A stretch of 64,000 nt of DNA from Clavaria fumosa (lineage: Eukaryota > Basidiomycota > Agaricomycetes > Agaricales > Clavariaceae), in NCBI GenBank assembly GCA_951802425.1, contig OX637804.1:2294001-2358000 (forward strand), written 5' to 3'. Numbering within the stretch: the stretch's first letter is position 1; the number at the start of each line of letters is the position of its first letter. The notes beneath the pieces were generated by a model that was not told where the DNA came from, made no database searches, and saw only the letters and a program-made list of their open reading frames with translations. Made by a program: the position numbers and the translations under genes. Shown here piece by piece: positions 3,563 through 31,625 of this stretch.

Positions 3563-4045
3563 ATGTCCATAGACCCGTGGGAGCAATCGCGAGTACGTCT
3601 CCAATAACTACTGTCTAAACTGACCCATCCATGATGATGATGGCCTTAAAAAGGAGATTATGCAACAAGGCAACCCGACCGACCATGATGTCACCATTAA
3701 CAATAACCTACACGTACGTCTCTCCAATAACCGTCTTACTACTACAAACTGACCCCATGATGGGAAGTACTACTCACGGTATGGAGCGCCTCCACCCCGG
3801 GATGGCGACGCATTTGACATCGCACGTTTCCAATAACTGTCTTACTACTACAAACTGACCTCATGATGGGAAGTACTACTCACGGTATGGAGCGCCTCCA
3901 CAGCCCCGGGTTGGCGACGCATTTGACACCGTACGTTTCCAATAATTGTCTTACTACCACAAGCTGACCCTAGGATGGGAAGTACTACAACCAATATTTT
4001 GCTGGTCCTCCACCCCAGGATTCCCAGGAGGGCTCCGACCAATGA
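3563..4045 (+). CDS. Modular small-exon gene, copy B (hypothetical protein)
   Basis: Function unknown. Five exons read cleanly in phase 0: 3563-3592 (MSIDPWEQSR), 3654-3713 (20 codons beginning EIMQQG), 3768-3821, 3874-3930, and 3983-4045 (YYNQYFAGPPP to tga). Exons 3 and 4 are a tandem duplicate, both encoding YYSRYGAPP followed by GDAFD. All four introns share the core 'ccaataac...ctgtct...aactgacc...aag' and are 52-61 bp long. Intron 3 has a GC donor (gcacgt at 3822) where its sisters have gtacgt. The predicted protein is about 88 residues, Tyr/Pro-rich, with no signal peptide. The upstream TATA is degenerate (attatatcaag near 3486), so expression is uncertain. Confidence 0.6.
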
Positions 4046-5421: not shown

Positions 5422-5750
5422 ATGACCGGCGGCGACCCGCTGAGAGAGATTGTTACGGTATGTCTCCAATAACTGTCTCACTACTACAAACTGATCTCCT
5501 CGGGAAGTTCTACCAAGATTATTTTGGCTCACCGACTGCTGCTGACGAGGATGCCCAAGAGGGCCCCGACCCCAACACAGAGGCAAAGGAATACAACCCC
5601 CAAGAGATGCCCAACCAACCCCAGCCCTTGACCCAGACGCCCAGCCGAACCCAGATGTCCCCCAACCCCGACGATGTCTCCGACGACGATGGAATGCCTG
5701 GAAAGGCCACAGACGACTTCCTCACCTATTCCTGTCCCCAGACCTCATAG
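5422..5750 (+). CDS. Modular small-exon gene, copy C (hypothetical protein, 92 aa)
   Basis: Function unknown. This is the simplest member, with two exons: 5422-5457 (MTGGDPLREIVT) and 5508-5750, joined by a 50-bp phase-0 intron (gtatgtctccaataactg...cgggaag). The last exon starts FYQDYFGSP, matching the YYNQ(H/Y)F start of the last exon in B, D and E2. It continues as a Pro/Gln/Asp-rich, apparently disordered acidic tail ending at tag. No membrane segment or signal peptide is seen. The uninterrupted frame, TATA box and canonical splice sites make this copy the best candidate for an intact gene after D and E2. Confidence 0.65.
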
Positions 5751-8929: not shown

Positions 8930-9019
8930 GCGGTGCGGTTGACCACGAATCTACAGGACCGAATTGGCAGTATTACTATTATAAAGCACCGAATTTGCAA
9001 AAATGACTGAAATCTTTAG

Positions 9020-9027
9020 TATATAAA
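9020..9027 (+). promoter_or_regulatory. TATA box of modular gene D
   Basis: TATATAAA in 'ctttagtatataaagaggcagttgag', 52 bp before the ATG at 9079. The block is nearly identical to that of E2. Confidence 0.75.
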
Positions 9028-9078
9028 GAGGCAGTTGAGAGAGACAAGAGAGACCGCAATTACAACAGCAAAGATAAA

Positions 9079-9957
9079 ATGGCCAGAAACCCGCAAGTAC
9101 GTCTTCAATAACTGTGTTACTGCAAACTGACCCATGATCATGGCCCCAAAAGGATGCTCACCAAGCCTTCATCGACTCCCTCAATGAGAGAGCCGCAGGC
9201 AGGCTGCCGCCTCTCCAAGTGCGTCTCCAATAACTTTCTTACTGTTACAAACTGACCCCATGGGTGGGAAGCCATGGGCACGGCATGGAGTGGCTGTATG
9301 TCTCCAATAACTGTGTTACTACCACAAACTGACCCATGATCATGGCCCCAAAAGGAAGCTCACCAAAAGTTCATCGAGTCCCTCAAGCAGAGCGCCGAAA
9401 AGAGGCAGGAGATATATAACGTGCGTCTCCAATAACTTTCTTACTGTTACAAACTGACCCCATGGGTGGGAAGCCATGGGCACGGCATGGAGTGGCTGTA
9501 TGTCTCCAATAACTGTGTTACTACCACAAACTGACCCATGATCATGGCCCCAAAAGGAAGCTCACCAAAAGTTCATCGAGTCCCTCGAGCAGAGCGCCGA
9601 AAAGAGGCAGGAGATATATAACGTGCGTCTCCAATAACTATCTTACTGTTACAAACTGACCCCATGGGTGGGAAGACATGGACACTGGGTGGGGGCGACT
9701 CCCGGCGCAAGGCACTGCTTGGGGGCCAGACCCAGACCCAGGATGCAGTACGTCTGCAATAACTGTCTTACCATGATGGGAAGTACTACAACCAACATTT
9801 TGTTGGGCCTCCACTCGTACAGTCAACTGCGCCCGAAAATGTCGAAAATGTCGAAAATTTCGACTCCGACGCAAATGACTCCAACGACAATGACTCCGAC
9901 GAAGATGACGAAACTGACAATGACGAAACTGACAATGACGAAAGCTCCCGTCATTAA
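9079..9957 (+). CDS. Modular small-exon gene, copy D (hypothetical protein, ~169 aa)
   Basis: Function unknown. Eight phase-0 exons: 9079-9096 (MARNPQ), 9153-9218, 9272-9295 (PWARHGVA), 9355-9420, 9474-9497 (PWARHGVA), 9557-9622, 9676-9747 and 9784-9957. Exons 2, 4 and 6 are variants of a 22-residue helix-like module (DAHQAFIDSLNERA / EAHQKFIESLKQSAEKRQ). Exons 4-5 with their introns are a 202-bp tandem duplicate of the following block. The last exon encodes YYNQHFVGPP and a highly acidic Asp/Asn/Glu/Thr tail. Introns alternate between two near-invariant types, one ending in 'catggccccaaaag' and one in 'catgggtgggaag'. All have gtgcgt, gtatgt or gtacgt donors and a ctgac branch motif. No known domain is recognised. 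Confidence 0.65.
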
Positions 9958-10081
9958 AGCAACGTTGAAGGTTTGAACAAAACTCACGCCTTTTACTCAT
10001 CTCTTTCTCACCATTCCAGTCCCCAGATGTCCTCGTAGCTACCTGAAGTCAAAGTAATAAATTGAATGCGAGGGTTTCTTA

Positions 10082-10887
10082 GGGCCCGTTCGGCAGCAGT
10101 TTCTCGCGTGAAAGTGTCTGCCAAATTCGAAATTAGAATCTGGCTCTCCCGCGCACAGTAGAGAGACTGTTCGGAGAGCACTTCCTAGATACAATTTCTG
10201 TATTTGAGAAAGAGATACTTGTACAAAATCGAAATACAGCTCTCAGCTGTTTTTGAAATCATTATCGCAAACTTTGACGTGTCTCTGGTGTGCTTTCCTC
10301 ATCACATCGACTGCATCTTCCTCCGCACATTTCTCAGCTGCTCATTCTTTTGAAGTCGCTCGACGTCCTCGGGTCGCTGTCGCCGCGCATACATCATCAT
10401 GAGAGGCGAGTATACATACTCGAGTGCACTTCGTCATCCGGGATGACGCCCTCACACAGCACACACTTATATATACCCTCAGCGGCAAGGGGATCTCTAC
10501 GTTGACTATCAAGGCTGTGCTTCAAACATGGCCGTTGATTTACCGGCAAGTGGCACGCAACTTGCGCATGCATGACATGCTCGGAGATGAGTCCAAGCGA
10601 GGGGGCGCTGACGACGGTCCGCATCGACAGATCAACCTGTTATGCGTGCCCGCGCCAGCCAAGACTGCCATCAAGACCATCTTCTGTTGCAGTCTAAGGC
10701 ATGCATAGTCTCCAGAAGATGTTCTGACCATGTGTGCATACAGTAGAGATTGAATAATAATCTAGTATTTGTGTTCGGTGAACATGACTAATTTCTCAAT
10801 GACAGAAAGCTCTATCTAATCTCGGACTGGTCAGATTGTGGTAGAGGCTCGATATTTTCGCGCGAGAAACTGCTGCCGAACGGGCCC
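10082..10887. mobile_element. PIF/Harbinger-type MITE inserted in cassette D
   Basis: The two ends form a perfect 27-bp terminal inverted repeat starting GGGCCCGTTCGGCAGCAG (10082-10108 and 10861-10887). The element is flanked by TTA on both sides (10079-10081 and 10888-10890). Copy E2 shows the uninserted site at about 31750 with a single TTA. A 3-bp TTA duplication and a GGGCC start are typical of PIF/Harbinger and Tourist-like elements. No transposase is encoded, and the longest frame (10424-10708) resembles nothing known, so the element is non-autonomous. Confidence 0.92.
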
Positions 10888-14315: not shown

Positions 14316-14968
14316 CAATACTAACATCAACCCCTGTCCGCCCTAGCCCCGTGTCCTAACCCGGCTAGCCTGGACCCCTATCTCAAACTGTCACACTCTG
14401 TGACAGCTTATCCCCCTCATCCTCTTTCTCTTTACCCTGCCCATGGTGTGCAACAGAACCGTGTGAAATTTTTACTGTGTGTAGATACACGTGACCAGAC
14501 CCGGAGGAAGTCTACTGTGACCCTCCCCAAGAGACACTGAGTGCCAAAGGCCTGGAACTTTGCTTTACAGCTATGTACCAGTGAATCGTGTAGTGTACAG
14601 GGCACAGAAAGGCCCTATACATAGTTTTTCTGTAGTTTCCTGGTCCAGTGGACAGGGCCCTTGCTCTGTGACCATTGTCAGAAGGGCACATGGGCAACTC
14701 ACTAGGAGTTGTGGAGTGACCACCTGGGACACCATTCGGGCCCCACACTAGCAACAAGTTTTATAGAATAAGAGTTCTATAAGTACCTAGATACATAGAG
14801 AGCAGCCTGAGAGGACAGGACTGCTAAGAGATTGAAGAAATCCTGAGTGCCCGAGGCCCGGAATTTTATTTACAGCGTCTGCGTCCGAGACCGGGTCGAG
14901 CCCAGCTCCCCCCCGATTCCCCTGTTACTGACATCCCCGAAACCCCATCACCACCACCAGGGTCTGTG

Positions 14969-15970
14969 ATGGCTGACCACGTTGCCCCACCTGCAGCCCA
15001 ACCAATGAGGCTTGACTTATCTGTTGCCCCCTTTGATGGGCAGAAAAAGAATTTCCGCACATTCCTCCATTTGCTTTGCCTCCAGTTTATGGTGAATCTG
15101 GTTATCTATGCCATGGACCCAGCAAAGGTCCTCTACACCCTCAGCAAGATCACTGGGGATGGGTTTGCCGCTGAGTGGGCAAATATGAAGGGAGAAGAGA
15201 TCCTGGGAAATGATGAGGCTGGATCCTGGGTAGACTTCGTGGAGGAGATGAAACGGGCATTTGATGACCTGAATGACCATGTGACCACCCTCGCAGACAT
15301 TGCGAGGCTGAAACAGGCCTCTGCGACAGCCCCAGAGTTCTTTGCAAAGTTCGAGACACTGTTCCGCCGAGCAGGAATGGCTGAGGCAGCTGATTCAGAT
15401 ATCTTGGTTCACTGGCTAGAGTTGAACCTGAGTAGGAGATTGGTGGGGAAGATCTATAGTGTCTCACCGATGCCTGAGACCTATGTGGAGTGGAAGGCAC
15501 TAGCAGAAAAACTTGATGCCCAGCAGCGCCACCTTGATGGAGTCATCGTGCAGCAGAATTCCGTCCGCCCAGCTCTGCCCATAGCCAGCCGACCCCTCCC
15601 CCAACCAACCCGCTTCACTACAGCCCTTTGCCCCTTCCTGGCCCAGCCACAGGCCCGCACCCCTGCCCCTCCTGTCATGCCGCATCCCGCCGGTGTTGGT
15701 GATGCCATGTTGGTCGATCGTGCACATGCCCCTGGAGTAGGACGCGCCTGTTTCTGATGTGGCCAAGCTGGCCACATGGTGAGAGACTGTCTCCTCCCAG
15801 ACACACACCCACAGATCCCGAGGCCACAGGTCTGTGCCGTGGAAAGCCAGGCACAAAGTGCCAAGGACTACAAGAATCAGATTGCTTTGCTCTTAAACCG
15901 TGTGGTGTTGTTGGAGAGAGAGAAGAGGGCTCCTACTGAGGAGCTGGATTTTGGAGACGAGGCCCAGTGA
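14969..15970 (+). pseudogene. Gypsy gag polyprotein with a stop inside the zinc knuckle
   Basis: Starts MADHVAPPAAQPMRLDLSV at the ATG at 14969. Residues ~15-190 form a gypsy Gag capsid-like region (FDGQKKNFRTFL, WVDFVEEMKRAFDD, FFAKFETLFRRAGM). The nucleocapsid CCHC knuckle reads C-F-stop-C-G-Q-A-G-H-M-V-R-D-C: the TGA at 15755-15757 sits in the knuckle where a CGA (Arg) would fit. The frame then continues to a tga at 15968. The single nonsense change is consistent with C-to-T mutation at a CpG. No ribosome-skipping signal to pol was identified. Confidence 0.85.
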
Positions 15971-16071
15971 GTCCAAACTGGTGTCTCAAGAGTAGTCACC
16001 CCAGCCCCCCTTCCGTCCCTGTGTCCACAGTGAGTATACCCAAATATACAATCTTGCAGTGGAGACATACT

Positions 16072-19000
16072 TGAATTGAGGCTGAGGAGAAGGACAAAGC
16101 GGAAACGGAAACTGCTAAGAGTGAAATACCGAAAAGAGAAAAGGGGACTAGCAGCAAAGTGGAGCCGACAAAGCGCCTTACAGAGGTGCTGAAGGACACC
16201 CTATTGTGTATGCCCTGAGAGCTCTCCATCCAGGTGCACCTGGAGGCTCTCAGCACTGGCAAAGGGGCAACTATGAAAGCCCTTGTCGACTCAGGCTGCA
16301 CCAACTGCTTTATGGACTTGGAGTGGGCGAAAAAAGTGGGATTGGAACCATCTCCCTTGCTGAATCCAATCACCATGTATAATGTGGATGGAACACAGAA
16401 CAGAGATGGTAAGATCCGGTATGGGATGGAGCTGCTTGTGACGGTTGGCGACCACCAGGAGCGGATCCACTTCCTGCTAGGGAAGACCCAGTCCCACATG
16501 GCGATCCTTGGGCATGATTGGCTAAAGCATCATAATCCAGAGATTGACTGGGTGAAAGCTGAAGTAAGACTCACCTGCTGCCCCAACACCTGTGCCTCCT
16601 CCCCACACAGCCACCGGTCCCCTGTTCGACCCTCAGTTCCACCAAAAGCAAGTACCCTGGCTTCGGCCAGTATCCCGGACACCCGTTTTCCCAACACTGG
16701 CCCTACCTCTGATTGGCCCAGCCGCTACCCTTTGGTTTTTAGTGAAGCAAAGTGGGATGAGCTCCCCCGCTCCCGCCCTGACTTTGATATCAAAATCGAG
16801 TTTAAAACAGACCCTGGACACCTCTCCTCTAAGCTATACTCTCTGACACGAGAAGAGATGGTGGAAATGAATTGCTGGGTGGATGAGCAGCTAGCTTCTG
16901 GACGAATCCAACCTTTGAAGTCCCTGTACATGAGCCCCTTCTTCTTCAAACGTGAGAAAGACAAGCTGCGGCCGATTATTGATTACTCTAGGCTGAACTC
17001 GTATCTAATCAAAAACAAGTACCCCCTCCCCCTCATACGAGACACTGTGGATGTGTTAAAGGGAGTGACCATCTATTCCAAGATTGATGCGAAGGGAGGT
17101 TTCCCATCGATGCAGGTCTGGCCAGAACATCAGCACCGCTGTGCTTTCCTAATGCCTCGTGGACTCTTCGAACCGGCAGTTATGTGGTTTGGGCTGCAGA
17201 ATGCACCTGCAACCTTCCAGTGCTTCATGAACCATGTGTTGAGGGAAGAGATTGCAGGGGGGCATGTCCGAGCCTATGTCGATGATGTTATAGTGTTTGC
17301 AGAGGATTTGGCTACACATCGGTATTGGATGGATTGGGTCTTGAAGAAGTTTGGGGAGAATGGCCTGTGTCTCAGACTCAGCAAGTGCGAGTTTGAGAAG
17401 AGTGAGGTTTTCTTCCTGGGGATGAAGATCTCCCACAACCGTCTAGAGCATGACCCAGCTAAAGGCGTGGCGATCCGTAACTGGCCCAGACCAAAGAATG
17501 TGAAAGAGGTACAAAGATTCAATGGGATGCTGAACTACCTCCGCCAGCACATCCCGAACCTCTCTGCCTGGGCAAAACCACTCTTCCGGCTGACAGGGAA
17601 AGTCCCGTGGAGATGGGAGGAGGAGGAGGAAGCAGCCTTCCAAGATCTCCACCTGGCACTAGTATCAGCCCCAGTCTTGGCTCTACCACAAGACAAAGGG
17701 AGATGGAAGGTAGAAATGGATGCGAGCAACTTGGTGACTGGAGGAGTTCTCTCGCAGCAGCAGGTGGATGGGACTTGGAGACTTGTAGACTACATCTCCA
17801 AAGCCCTCACTGCAGCTGAGAAGAATTACGATGTGTACGACAAGGAGTTCCTGGCTGTAATCCGGGCACTACGTGAGTGGCGGGCTTACCTGATTGGGGT
17901 GGAAGAGACTATCGAAATCTGGATGGACCATGCTAACCTCCAGTACTTCCGGAAGCCCCAGAAGTTGAAACTGAGGCAGGTCTGTTGGGTTGGAAAGCTC
18001 CAGTGCTTTGACTTTGAGATCAAGTACCGTACTGGGAAGTCAAACACAAAAGCTGATGCACTCTCATGGAGGCCAGATTATGGAGAGATGGTGGAGGAGG
18101 ATGCACCAGTACAGGTCTTCCCAGAGGCTGAGACCCGGACATCATTCACATCGGAGATGGAGACACTACTCCAGAAAAACAGCATGGTATATGTGCAGAA
18201 GCTGGAGGAGCTTGATGATGAGTGGATGAGAGATTGGATGGGACTCTGGCGGAAGGCAGAAATCACTTGGGTGCCCCCAGAAGCACGTGAGGCAGTGCTC
18301 ACCTTTGAGCATGACCTCCCCATCGCAGGGCACCCTGGTCCATGGAAACTGAGGGCGGCTCTGCTGAGGTCCTACTGGTGGGTGGGCATGGTGAAGGATT
18401 CCAATCAGTATGCAGGTGGATGCGAGACATGCCAATGAATCAAGCCTGATCGTACCAGGTGCGCTGCTCCGCTCCATCCACACCCTGTCCCTGAGAGCCC
18501 CTGGGCAGTCATCTCTTGGGACATTGTTGGGCCTTTCCCCCTCTCACATGGTCACAATGCGATCCTTGTCATTGTCGACAAGTTTACAAAACAAACTCTC
18601 ATCAAAGCTATTGGCCTTGACCTCATGGGACTTGGTGCTGCTTGGATCCTTTGAGACCGGGTCTTCCGCGACCATGGAGTCCCGCAGAAAGTTGTGAGTG
18701 ACCGGGGAACCCAATTCGTGTCCAGATTCATGAGGGAGTTCTATGGGATGATTGGAGTTAAGGCGAACCCGAGCACTGCCTTCCACCCACAAACAGATGG
18801 ACAGACAGAGCAGGTCAATCAGGAGGTTGAAGTGTATCTCTGGGCCTATGTTGACCATCTGCAGGATGATTGGGCAGAGTGGCTATCCACAGCCGAATTC
18901 GTGCTCAATAACTGTGAGCACTCAGCCACCGGATTCACACCTTTCTATCTGGAGTATGGCCGGCACCCTTGGAATGGTGGTATCCGGCCGCCCTCTGAAG

Positions 19001-19590
19001 TGAACCCTGCAGCAGATGAGTGGATGGCCAAGCTCACGGAATCCCGAAGAGCAGCCAGGGATGCAATGGGGAAGGCGGCAGATGCGATGAAGGCTAGCTA
19101 TGATAAAGGAAAGCACCCGAGTTGTGAATACTCAAAGGGGGACTTAGTCTGGCTGGATACCCGGAACCTGAAAATGGATCGACCATCCAAGAAGCTTGAC
19201 AACAAGTGGGCTGGACCCTTCACTATTGAAGAGAAGGTTGGACCAGCAGCATACCGACTCAAGCTCCCCCGAGCATGGCGCATTCACCGGGTTTTCAATG
19301 AGTTGCTACTCACCCTGTATATTGCTCCCTCTTTCCCTTCCCAGAACTTGCCTCCACCCCCACCCCCCACAATTGACGATGACCACTTGGAGTATGAGGT
19401 GGAGGAAATTCTTGATGTCAAGAAGGTTGGACAGGGAGTGAAGTATTTGGTGAAGTGGTTAGGATACCCTGCAGAGGAGAACACCTGGGAACCTCATTGC
19501 AACCTCACTAACGTTGCACTGTTGCTCCGGGACTTCTTCCAGCAATACCCTGACAAGGTGAAGTTGGCAGGTCGAGACGCCCAGCCTTAA
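16072..19590 (+). pseudogene. Gypsy pol: protease, RT, RNase H, integrase, chromodomain
   Basis: The frame opens weakly after a TGA (16072-16074) and is cut by further TGAs at 16216, 18436 and 18652. Protease: ALVDSGCTNCFMD with the DSG catalytic triad. RT: KLRPIIDYSRLN, KIDAKGGF, and the YVDDV active site intact near 17277. RNase H: VEMDAS, EKNYDVYDKEF, WMDHANL and KADALS. Integrase: an HHCC zinc region ending CETCQ, then SWDIVGPFP, SDRGTQF and QTEQVNQ for the D-D-E core. Chromodomain near the end: YEVEEILDVKK, YLVKWLGYP and NTWEPHCNL. The stop is the taa at 19588-19590. Every internal stop is TGA and could derive from CGA. Confidence 0.9.
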
Positions 19591-30947: not shown

Positions 30948-31625
30948 ATGGCCAAAGACCCGGTGAAGCAGATGCGAGTACGTCTTCAATAACTGTGTTA
31001 CTGCAAACTGACCCATGATGAGGGCCCCAAAAGGCCATTATCGAAAGTCAGGGCCCGACCCCCGAGAACATGGAGATGATGGAGAGTGTTCTTGTACGTC
31101 TCCAATAACTATCCCACTACTACAAACTGACTCATGGTGGGAAGAGATGGGCACAGTATGGAGTGGAGGGCCAGGATGCAGTACGTCTCCAATAACTGTG
31201 TTACTACCACAAACTGACCCATGATGATGGCCCCAAAAGAATGTTCCCCAAGACATCAATAGCTTCATTAGCTTCCTCGACGAGCGCGCCGAACGCAGGC
31301 AGGAGATGTATCGAGTGCGTCTCCAATAACTATCTTACTGTTACAAACTGACCCCATGGGTGGAAAGAGATGGGCACAGCTTGGGCAGCGCCAGGATGCA
31401 GTACGTCTGCAATAACTGTCTTACCATGATGGGAAGTACTACAACCAACATTTTGTTGGGCCTCCACTCGTACAGTCAACTGCGCCCGAAAATGTCGAAA
31501 ATGTCGAAAATTTCGACTCCGACGCAAATGACTCCAACGACAATGACTCCGACGAAGATGACGAAACTGACAATGACGAAACTGACAATGACGAAACTGA
31601 CGATGACGAAAGCTCCCGTCGTTAA
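30948..31625 (+). CDS. Modular small-exon gene, copy E2 (hypothetical protein, ~140 aa)
   Basis: Function unknown. Six phase-0 exons: 30948-30977 (MAKDPVKQMR), 31034-31093 (AIIESQGPTPENMEMMESVL), 31145-31180 (RWAQYGVEGQDA), 31240-31314 (25 residues including FISFLDERAERRQEMY), 31368-31400 (RWAQLGQRQDA) and 31437-31625 (YYNQHFVGPP then a long acidic Asp/Asn/Glu/Thr tail to taa). The five introns (36-59 bp) are near-copies of those in gene D. Exon 4 corresponds to the helix-like module of D, and exons 3 and 5 to the W-A-x-x-G module. The reading frame is complete and the splice sites canonical, so this is a credible expressed gene. Confidence 0.65.

Follow-up and report, generated by a model that had tools for sequence, protein, structure and literature searches.

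Introduction

Genes in which the coding sequence diverges while the introns and flanks stay alike, a reversal of the usual pattern of conservation, are known from insects and snakes. In the Hessian fly, Mayetiola destructor, the SSSGP genes form tandem clusters and are described as having conserved promoters, UTRs and introns around hypervariable coding sequence; one pair of copies encodes identical proteins, and SSSGP-2 has 35 introns and about 950 coding nucleotides (PMC2955719). The causes named in that report are positive selection and homogenisation. In snake three-finger toxins, segments of exons have been swapped for unrelated sequence (a process called ASSET) while the introns remain alike, by a mechanism that the reports describe as unexplained (PMC2474615, PMC2711939). 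The HYP effectors of cyst nematodes are described as having a hypervariable, frame-keeping coding region in conserved surroundings (PMC11228951).

Other systems share part of the gene architecture considered here. Schistosome microexon genes encode secreted proteins and reuse their exons by splicing; their small symmetric exons resemble those described below. In fungi, introner-like elements are described as near-identical spliceosomal introns with hundreds of copies in unrelated genes (PMC4457414), whereas the introns described here were found, among the best-scoring candidates, in one family only. The sea urchin 185/333 genes are likewise diverse mosaics of elements, but in them the diversity of the intron is reported to exceed that of the second exon more than threefold (PMC1988830), which is the opposite of the contrast seen here.

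Here we describe a gene family in the fungus Clavaria fumosa, identified from a stretch of 64,000 nucleotides (C11:2294001-2358000, hereafter the window) and followed through the 48.8 Mb of the genome in 17 contigs. The original prediction knew of no described equivalent, but the SSSGP genes and the three-finger toxins show the same reversal in the accounts cited. There are nevertheless clear differences. SSSGP proteins come from an insect and are reported as secreted, with a conserved signal peptide and demonstrated expression (PMC2955719), whereas the present family is fungal, is scattered over eight contigs and, in 18 of 19 models, begins without any strongly hydrophobic stretch. Three-finger toxins are secreted, disulphide-folded proteins with a conserved cysteine frame (PMC2474615, PMC2711939), while the proteins here are cysteine-poor and their exon number varies. 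HYP variation is allelic, at a single locus and inside one exon (PMC11228951); here it is paralogues that diverge, over many exons. No fungal family with reversed conservation was among the literature matches listed, which were mostly non-subscription papers. What sets the present family apart is the occurrence in a fungus, the many phase-0 microexons combined with a uniform intron, the lack of an evident secretion signal, the spread over eight contigs and, in two subfamilies, ends that resemble lipid anchors.

Gene structure in the window

Gene D, predicted from the sequence on the forward strand at 9079-9957, has eight exons (9079-9096, 9153-9218, 9272-9295, 9355-9420, 9474-9497, 9557-9622, 9676-9747 and 9784-9957) and encodes 169 amino acids. 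The exons are 18, 66, 24, 66, 24, 66, 72 and 174 nt long, each divisible by three, and are separated by seven GT-AG introns of 56, 53, 59, 53, 59, 53 and 36 nt, phase 0 throughout, as had been predicted. The original prediction also sorted the introns into two near-identical types, which is correct for introns 1 to 6: introns 1, 3 and 5 end in ggccccaaaag, and introns 2, 4 and 6 in gggtgggaag. Intron 7 (9748-9783) belongs to neither, being shortened to 36 nt, ending in gatgggaag and lacking CTGAC, and its splicing is the least certain.

A tandem duplication of a 202-bp two-exon cassette had been claimed and was found again: intron 3, exon 4, intron 4 and exon 5 (9296-9497) are followed directly by a second copy (9498-9699) that differs at 12 of 202 positions, the last 24 nt accounting for 10 of these. 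Within the gene, exons 2 and 4 differ at 23 of 66 positions, introns 2 and 4 at none of 53, and exons 3 and 5 at none of 24. Intron 1 (9097-9152) is a mosaic, in which the 5' part is like intron 1 of gene E and the last 30 nt are those of D intron 3, with a 3' end identical to introns 3 and 5; this is consistent with unequal exchange within an intron.

The gene is preceded by a TATA box and 5'UTR (9015-9078, forward strand; block ATATAAAGAG...GATAAAATG), a probe for which matched 10 places in the genome, and is followed by a conserved 3'UTR (9958-10080, forward strand), for which the genome probe gave eight matching places, itself included. The 3' flank also holds an 806-bp element (10082-10887), which is bounded by terminal inverted repeats of 27 bp without a mismatch (GGGCCCGTTCGGCAGCAG...) and by a duplicated TTA target. 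The corresponding site in gene E is empty, and the element therefore looks younger than the split between D and E.

The other family genes in the window also lie on the forward strand. Gene B (3563-4045) has five exons (3563-3592, 3654-3713, 3768-3821, 3874-3930 and 3983-4045) and one GC-AG intron (3822-3873), gene C (5422-5750) has two exons (5422-5457 and 5508-5750), and gene E (30948-31625, originally called E2) has six (30948-30977, 31034-31093, 31145-31180, 31240-31314, 31368-31400 and 31437-31625) and encodes 140 amino acids. In agreement with the original prediction, their introns are of the same kind as those of D, and their exons differ. Gene A (115-445; exons 115-267 and 320-445), which had not been noticed before, is a decayed copy, in which an upstream intron has probably decayed into exon 1. 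Elsewhere in the window there is a Ty3/Gypsy-type retrotransposon (14966-19590), whose reading frame at 16234-18438 has protease-, reverse transcriptase-, RNase H- and integrase-zinc-binding-like domains (the adjoining frames were judged by eye), and a GCA/GGC-rich low-complexity tract at about 25-28 kb, which gives rise to long open reading frames on both strands.

The family across the genome

Probes for both UTRs and for the introns located at least 36 family loci on eight contigs (C1, C2, C3, C5, C6, C10, C11 and C12), the counts being lower bounds taken from the best-scoring candidates only. Gene models were made for 31 of the 36 (in sets of 19, 8 and 4), and the other five (F3, L052, L005, G2 (L081) and L092) are broken or interrupted. 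The TATA box and 5'UTR are common to most members, and end, as judged by eye, in GATAAAATG, GATAACATG or GATAATAAAATG. The exceptions are F3, whose 5' end was severed by an insertion and lies about 2.5 kb away beyond it (the match at C6:3216694), L052 and L092, which have lost it, and G8, where the end differs. The 3'UTR is also common to members of several subfamilies. A probe for the C6 3'UTR matched 12 places, comprising C6b-d, the genes L077 (C6e), L090, L091, L093 and L094, the 5'-truncated copy L092, and L076, L078 and L079, which are remnants only.

Pieces of a Chs7-like gene (PF12271) adjoin family genes at five loci on C11 (2294972, 2300624, 2305555, 2326423 and 2425873) and at two F loci (C6 3268002 and 3394329); the best match lies at C3 1230104-1231125, and four of the seven pieces contain stops. 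A Chs7-like piece is also present at L075 (C11 2177 kb), and a family gene is absent from the 3.5 kb read there.

The set of 19 models has 43 introns, of which 41 are GT-AG and two are GC-AG; their lengths are 36-72 nt, and 39 have a CTRAY branch-like site. The idea of a box C/D snoRNA within the introns was weighed by eye and set aside. Some models carry caveats: homology or frame decided the 3' splice sites of A, of E intron 1 and of intron 2 in F4 and F5, where an earlier AG is present; the models of G7, G8 and L091 each rely on a composite intron by which a short piece is skipped; C6b has no stop at the usual place; and C10c is followed by more intron-like units beyond the model. In L087 (C5 383 kb), two copies of the intron lie on either side of the 5-nt sequence GACCA, which could be a true microexon used with a phase-1 donor upstream, or could be skipped, as modelled.

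Three near-identical copies, G4, G5 and G6 (L083, L084 and L085), lie at 1.20-1.35 Mb on C2. A second, independent tandem duplication of an intron plus exon is present in L093 (C6 1883 kb), where the introns differ at none of 46 positions and exons 2 and 3 at 8 of 123.

Reading frame

All 57 intron positions in the 31 models are phase 0, although the frame was taken into account when some of the splice sites were selected. The set of 19 models contributes 43 introns, every one in phase 0, and 24 internal exons, every one in frame and free of stops; the 12 further models add 14 phase-0 introns (nine in eight models and five in four) and two in-frame internal exons. When the internal exons are reduced to one or a few from each group, all 12 that remain are divisible by three, the chance of which is (1/3)^12 = 2e-6. 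All 22 internal exons counted are free of stops in the coding frame, compared to 16 and 7 in the two alternative frames, and 30 of 41 introns have an in-frame stop within their first six codons, both counts being made with F4 and F5 models in which intron 2 was omitted or cut short. Retention of an intron would thus end the protein, with a tail that in the window genes and C1 is mostly VRLQ. Differences in length between modelled exons are always multiples of three. Within aligned exons of five pairs, 21 of 42 gap lengths are multiples of three compared to 7 of 45 in non-coding sequence, a noisy difference because gaps in unalignable stretches are arbitrary.

In genes B, D, E and C1 much of the coding sequence is in short symmetric exons, which is not the case for the two-exon members. 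Owing to the symmetry and phase 0 of the modelled exons, gain, loss or skipping of an exon would keep the frame. The suggestion that the introns are simply a tandem repeat, with no constraint of frame on the intervals between them, is rejected on these data.

Divergence of exons and introns

When 14 representative genes were compared by local alignment, z>5 was reached by 357 of 547 pairs of introns but by only 7 of 183 pairs of internal exons; the corresponding figures are 46 of 78 for the 60 nt before the ATG (13 genes) and 4 of 91 for the first 90 nt of the last exons. The predicted combination of a frame-constrained multi-exon family with similar introns and divergent exons is upheld, and the family extends to at least 36 loci. 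A second copy of E exons 2-4 or of F1 exon 2 was not found in this genome among the best-scoring candidates.

Close duplicates allow a more direct comparison. In D/E, C10a/b, the F genes and L093/L094, the divergence of exons is 3 to 12 times that of the introns, UTRs and flanks. For D/E, 50 of 366 exon positions are mismatched and 38 of 1103 non-coding ones (upstream 24/730, downstream 2/118, introns 12/255; p=4e-11), with a further 82 mismatches over 2431 columns further downstream. The figures for C10a/b are 17/203 and 24/976 (introns 0/103; p=2e-4), for F1/F2 56/316 and 22/1137 (introns 0/119, flanks 22/1018; p=2e-22), and for L093/L094 38/155 and 8/396 (6/350 in the 350 bases upstream and 2/46 in the intron; p=1e-15). 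Five other F pairs, counted with corrected F4 and F5 models, also have an exon excess, with p of 3e-9 or lower. The long flanks of F1/F2 have 36 mismatches over 1980 positions upstream and 18 over 1358 downstream.

The step lies at the splice junctions of six gene pairs (D/E, C10a/b and four overlapping F pairs): on the 5' side, 53 of 144 positions are mismatched in the last 12 exon nucleotides and 4 of 144 in the first 12 of the intron, and on the 3' side 6 of 144 in the last 12 intron nucleotides and 30 of 108 in the first 12 of the exon. The junction counts, the long flanks and the earlier pair counts used F4 and F5 models with intron 2 omitted or short; the F-pair counts were redone with corrected models. 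Alignments of the hypervariable exons are gap-optimised and so understate the divergence, and the p-values are only indicative, because sites and pairs are not independent. The introns thus change at about the rate of the flanks, with the exons above it. The original prediction of near-invariant introns, taken as a special constraint, is therefore not supported: the introns are not unusually constrained, and it is the exons that are accelerated.

This reversal was found in four of the six close groups tested. C6b, C6c and C6d have no exon excess overall (14/238 exon against 12/399 non-coding, 6/254 against 27/498, and 13/229 against 51/514), and the exons of G4, G5 and G6 have 0 of 291 differences in all three pairs, with flanks that differ by 0 to 1.2%.

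In the first exon of C6b-d, every single-base change counted is non-synonymous (ratios of 7:0 and 4:0 for two pairs out of three), and between the L093 cassette exons there are six single non-synonymous codon changes and no synonymous ones. In ten other comparisons 43 single-change codons are non-synonymous and seven synonymous, and 15 codons are multiply changed. Pooled over 8 of 12 comparisons, pN is 0.108 and pS 0.059, a marginal difference (one-sided p=0.056). Four-fold sites differ at 5 of 72 positions, compared to 5 of 553 in introns of some of the same pairs (p=0.003; the intron tally was made by hand, with C6 and B introns omitted and the C1 pair read by eye), and this is slightly above an assumed flank rate of 2.5% (p=0.034). 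Such a raised rate is not predicted by plain selection on point mutations.

Protein sequences

The proteins of the 19 models are 48-173 amino acids long, cysteine-poor and disordered-looking, with a fraction of disorder-type residues of 0.64-0.86. A Pfam search with four of them (E, C1, C6c and F1) gave nothing convincing (E-values of 0.038 and 0.8 for E, and 0.88 for F1). No homologues were found for E at E<=10 or for C6c at E<=1 in a large protein set, which may omit this genome. A strongly hydrophobic N-terminus is absent in 18 of the 19 models (maximum 11-residue mean hydropathy of 0.32 or less in the first 35 residues), the exception being gene A, at 1.75.

All five F genes (L070-L074, C6 3.03-3.39 Mb) end in C-x-x-Q, namely CSAQ, CRNQ, CSAQ, CGTQ and CKHQ; in F4 and F5 the choice of the last splice sites took account of the frame. 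The preceding codons vary, as do the two in the middle, and the constancy of the motif around them would be difficult to account for if the frame were not translated. We take this motif to be a CaaX-like box, a putative prenylation signal; glutamine is accepted at position -1 of CaaX. C10a and C10b (L049/L050) both begin with MGGCGS in the first exon, which in our view resembles a signal for N-myristoylation plus palmitoylation.

Discussion

The gene structure, the reading frame and, in four groups, an acceleration limited to the exons are shown here. Splicing, translation, selection as the cause, and function we infer from the sequence. The reading that we consider probable is that of an orphan family of disordered, multi-exon genes under episodic diversifying selection, with some duplication of exon cassettes. 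Units made of a promoter, a small multi-exon gene and, at some loci, an often-broken Chs7-like neighbour would duplicate and scatter. After duplication, the exons of some copies would outpace the surrounding DNA, while introns, UTRs and flanks stay at the background rate. The exons would change by substitutions that mostly alter the amino acid, by frame-keeping changes in length and by growth of in-frame repeats, such as ANNAS in C1 and ETDND in D/E, which may supply variants; tandemly duplicated intron-plus-exon cassettes in D and L093 may supply more. The driver would be diversifying selection, acting in episodes on proteins that are small, disordered and probably intracellular and that in some cases have lipid-anchor-like ends, features that would be expected of proteins of recognition or conflict. 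The raised change at four-fold sites, together with segments of the F and L093/L094 exons that differ outright, leaves room for conversion or segment switching.

The main rival is concerted homogenisation, in which selection keeps old exons diverse and gene conversion evens out the introns, UTRs and flanks. We regard this as possible but not likely. It is favoured by the raised four-fold-site change and by the lack of a recent donor, in our searches, for the exons of E and F1, and it is named as a likely mechanism for the conserved parts in the account of the SSSGP genes (PMC2955719). However, the flanks of D/E and F1/F2 are uniformly alike over 1-2 kb, at D and E even through Chs7-like pieces that contain stops; conversion that passed over exons of 18-141 nt would still need to reach the 50-nt introns between them; and the G4-G6 triplet looks like a recent duplication of whole units. 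Alternatively, crossing over within the similar introns might move ready-made exons between loci. The mosaic intron 1 and tandem cassettes of D and the second tandem cassette in L093 could be products of such exchange, and exons 1-2 of E read by eye like those of B (MAKDPVKQMR and MSIDPWEQSR) while its introns are nearest to those of D. We nevertheless think this unlikely, because searches of this genome gave no further copy of E exons 2-4 or F1 exon 2, and much of the change falls inside exons, as in F exon 1; the donors could, however, sit in other strains. Of the cassette duplication or recombination originally proposed, the duplications in D and L093 and the mosaic intron stand, while the general exon-shuffling model is weakened by these exons without a second copy.

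The outright differences in segments of the F exons and in both exons of L093/L094, where first introns are 93-100% alike, and again the raised four-fold-site change, would fit a rewriting targeted to exons, like the editing of the HVD of nematode HYP effectors or the segment switching of venom genes. The fresh duplicates G4-G6 share identical exons and C6b-d have no exon excess, which makes such rewriting very improbable here. We think it very improbable too that a locus-specific system, as a fungal equivalent of HVD editing, rewrites or reassorts exons while sparing introns and flanks, with phase-0 microexons as interchangeable slots between uniform introns. The originally suggested spread of introner-like elements, in which one mobile intron inserts many times, could account for near-identical introns within one gene, such as the four of C1, but is hardly credible: among the best-scoring candidates, 16 of 17 places matched by an intron probe are in family genes and the other is a family-like remnant (C2:964.3 kb), all 20 places matched by the F-gene intron probe are in family loci, and the modelled introns are all phase 0. 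The nine loci that were new when found with the F-gene probe carry the family 5'UTR, as judged by eye. An exact intron 14-mer occurs at nine places, all in family loci, but this count is uninformative because a reversed control pattern matched 10. As a whole, the original interpretation stands as regards a frame-constrained family with cassettes, and is not supported as regards introners, constraint on introns and the lack of an equivalent.

Diversifying selection remains our preferred reading, and the reversed conservation hints at proteins under pressure to keep changing. Fast change of exons in a multi-copy family that is apparently not secreted suggests a role in internal conflict or recognition, for which mating, vegetative incompatibility, meiotic drive and parasites are candidate settings, none of them favoured. 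Such a reversal points strongly to proteins in an arms race, and the clean duplicate pairs in this family let coding change be set against the adjoining DNA base by base. The question raised by the venom and gall-midge genes, of selection versus homogenisation versus segment switching, therefore becomes testable in a fungus. The approach used here, of probing with a shared 5'UTR and introns and then looking for a contrast between exons and introns, finds families of this kind where the protein searches tried gave nothing.
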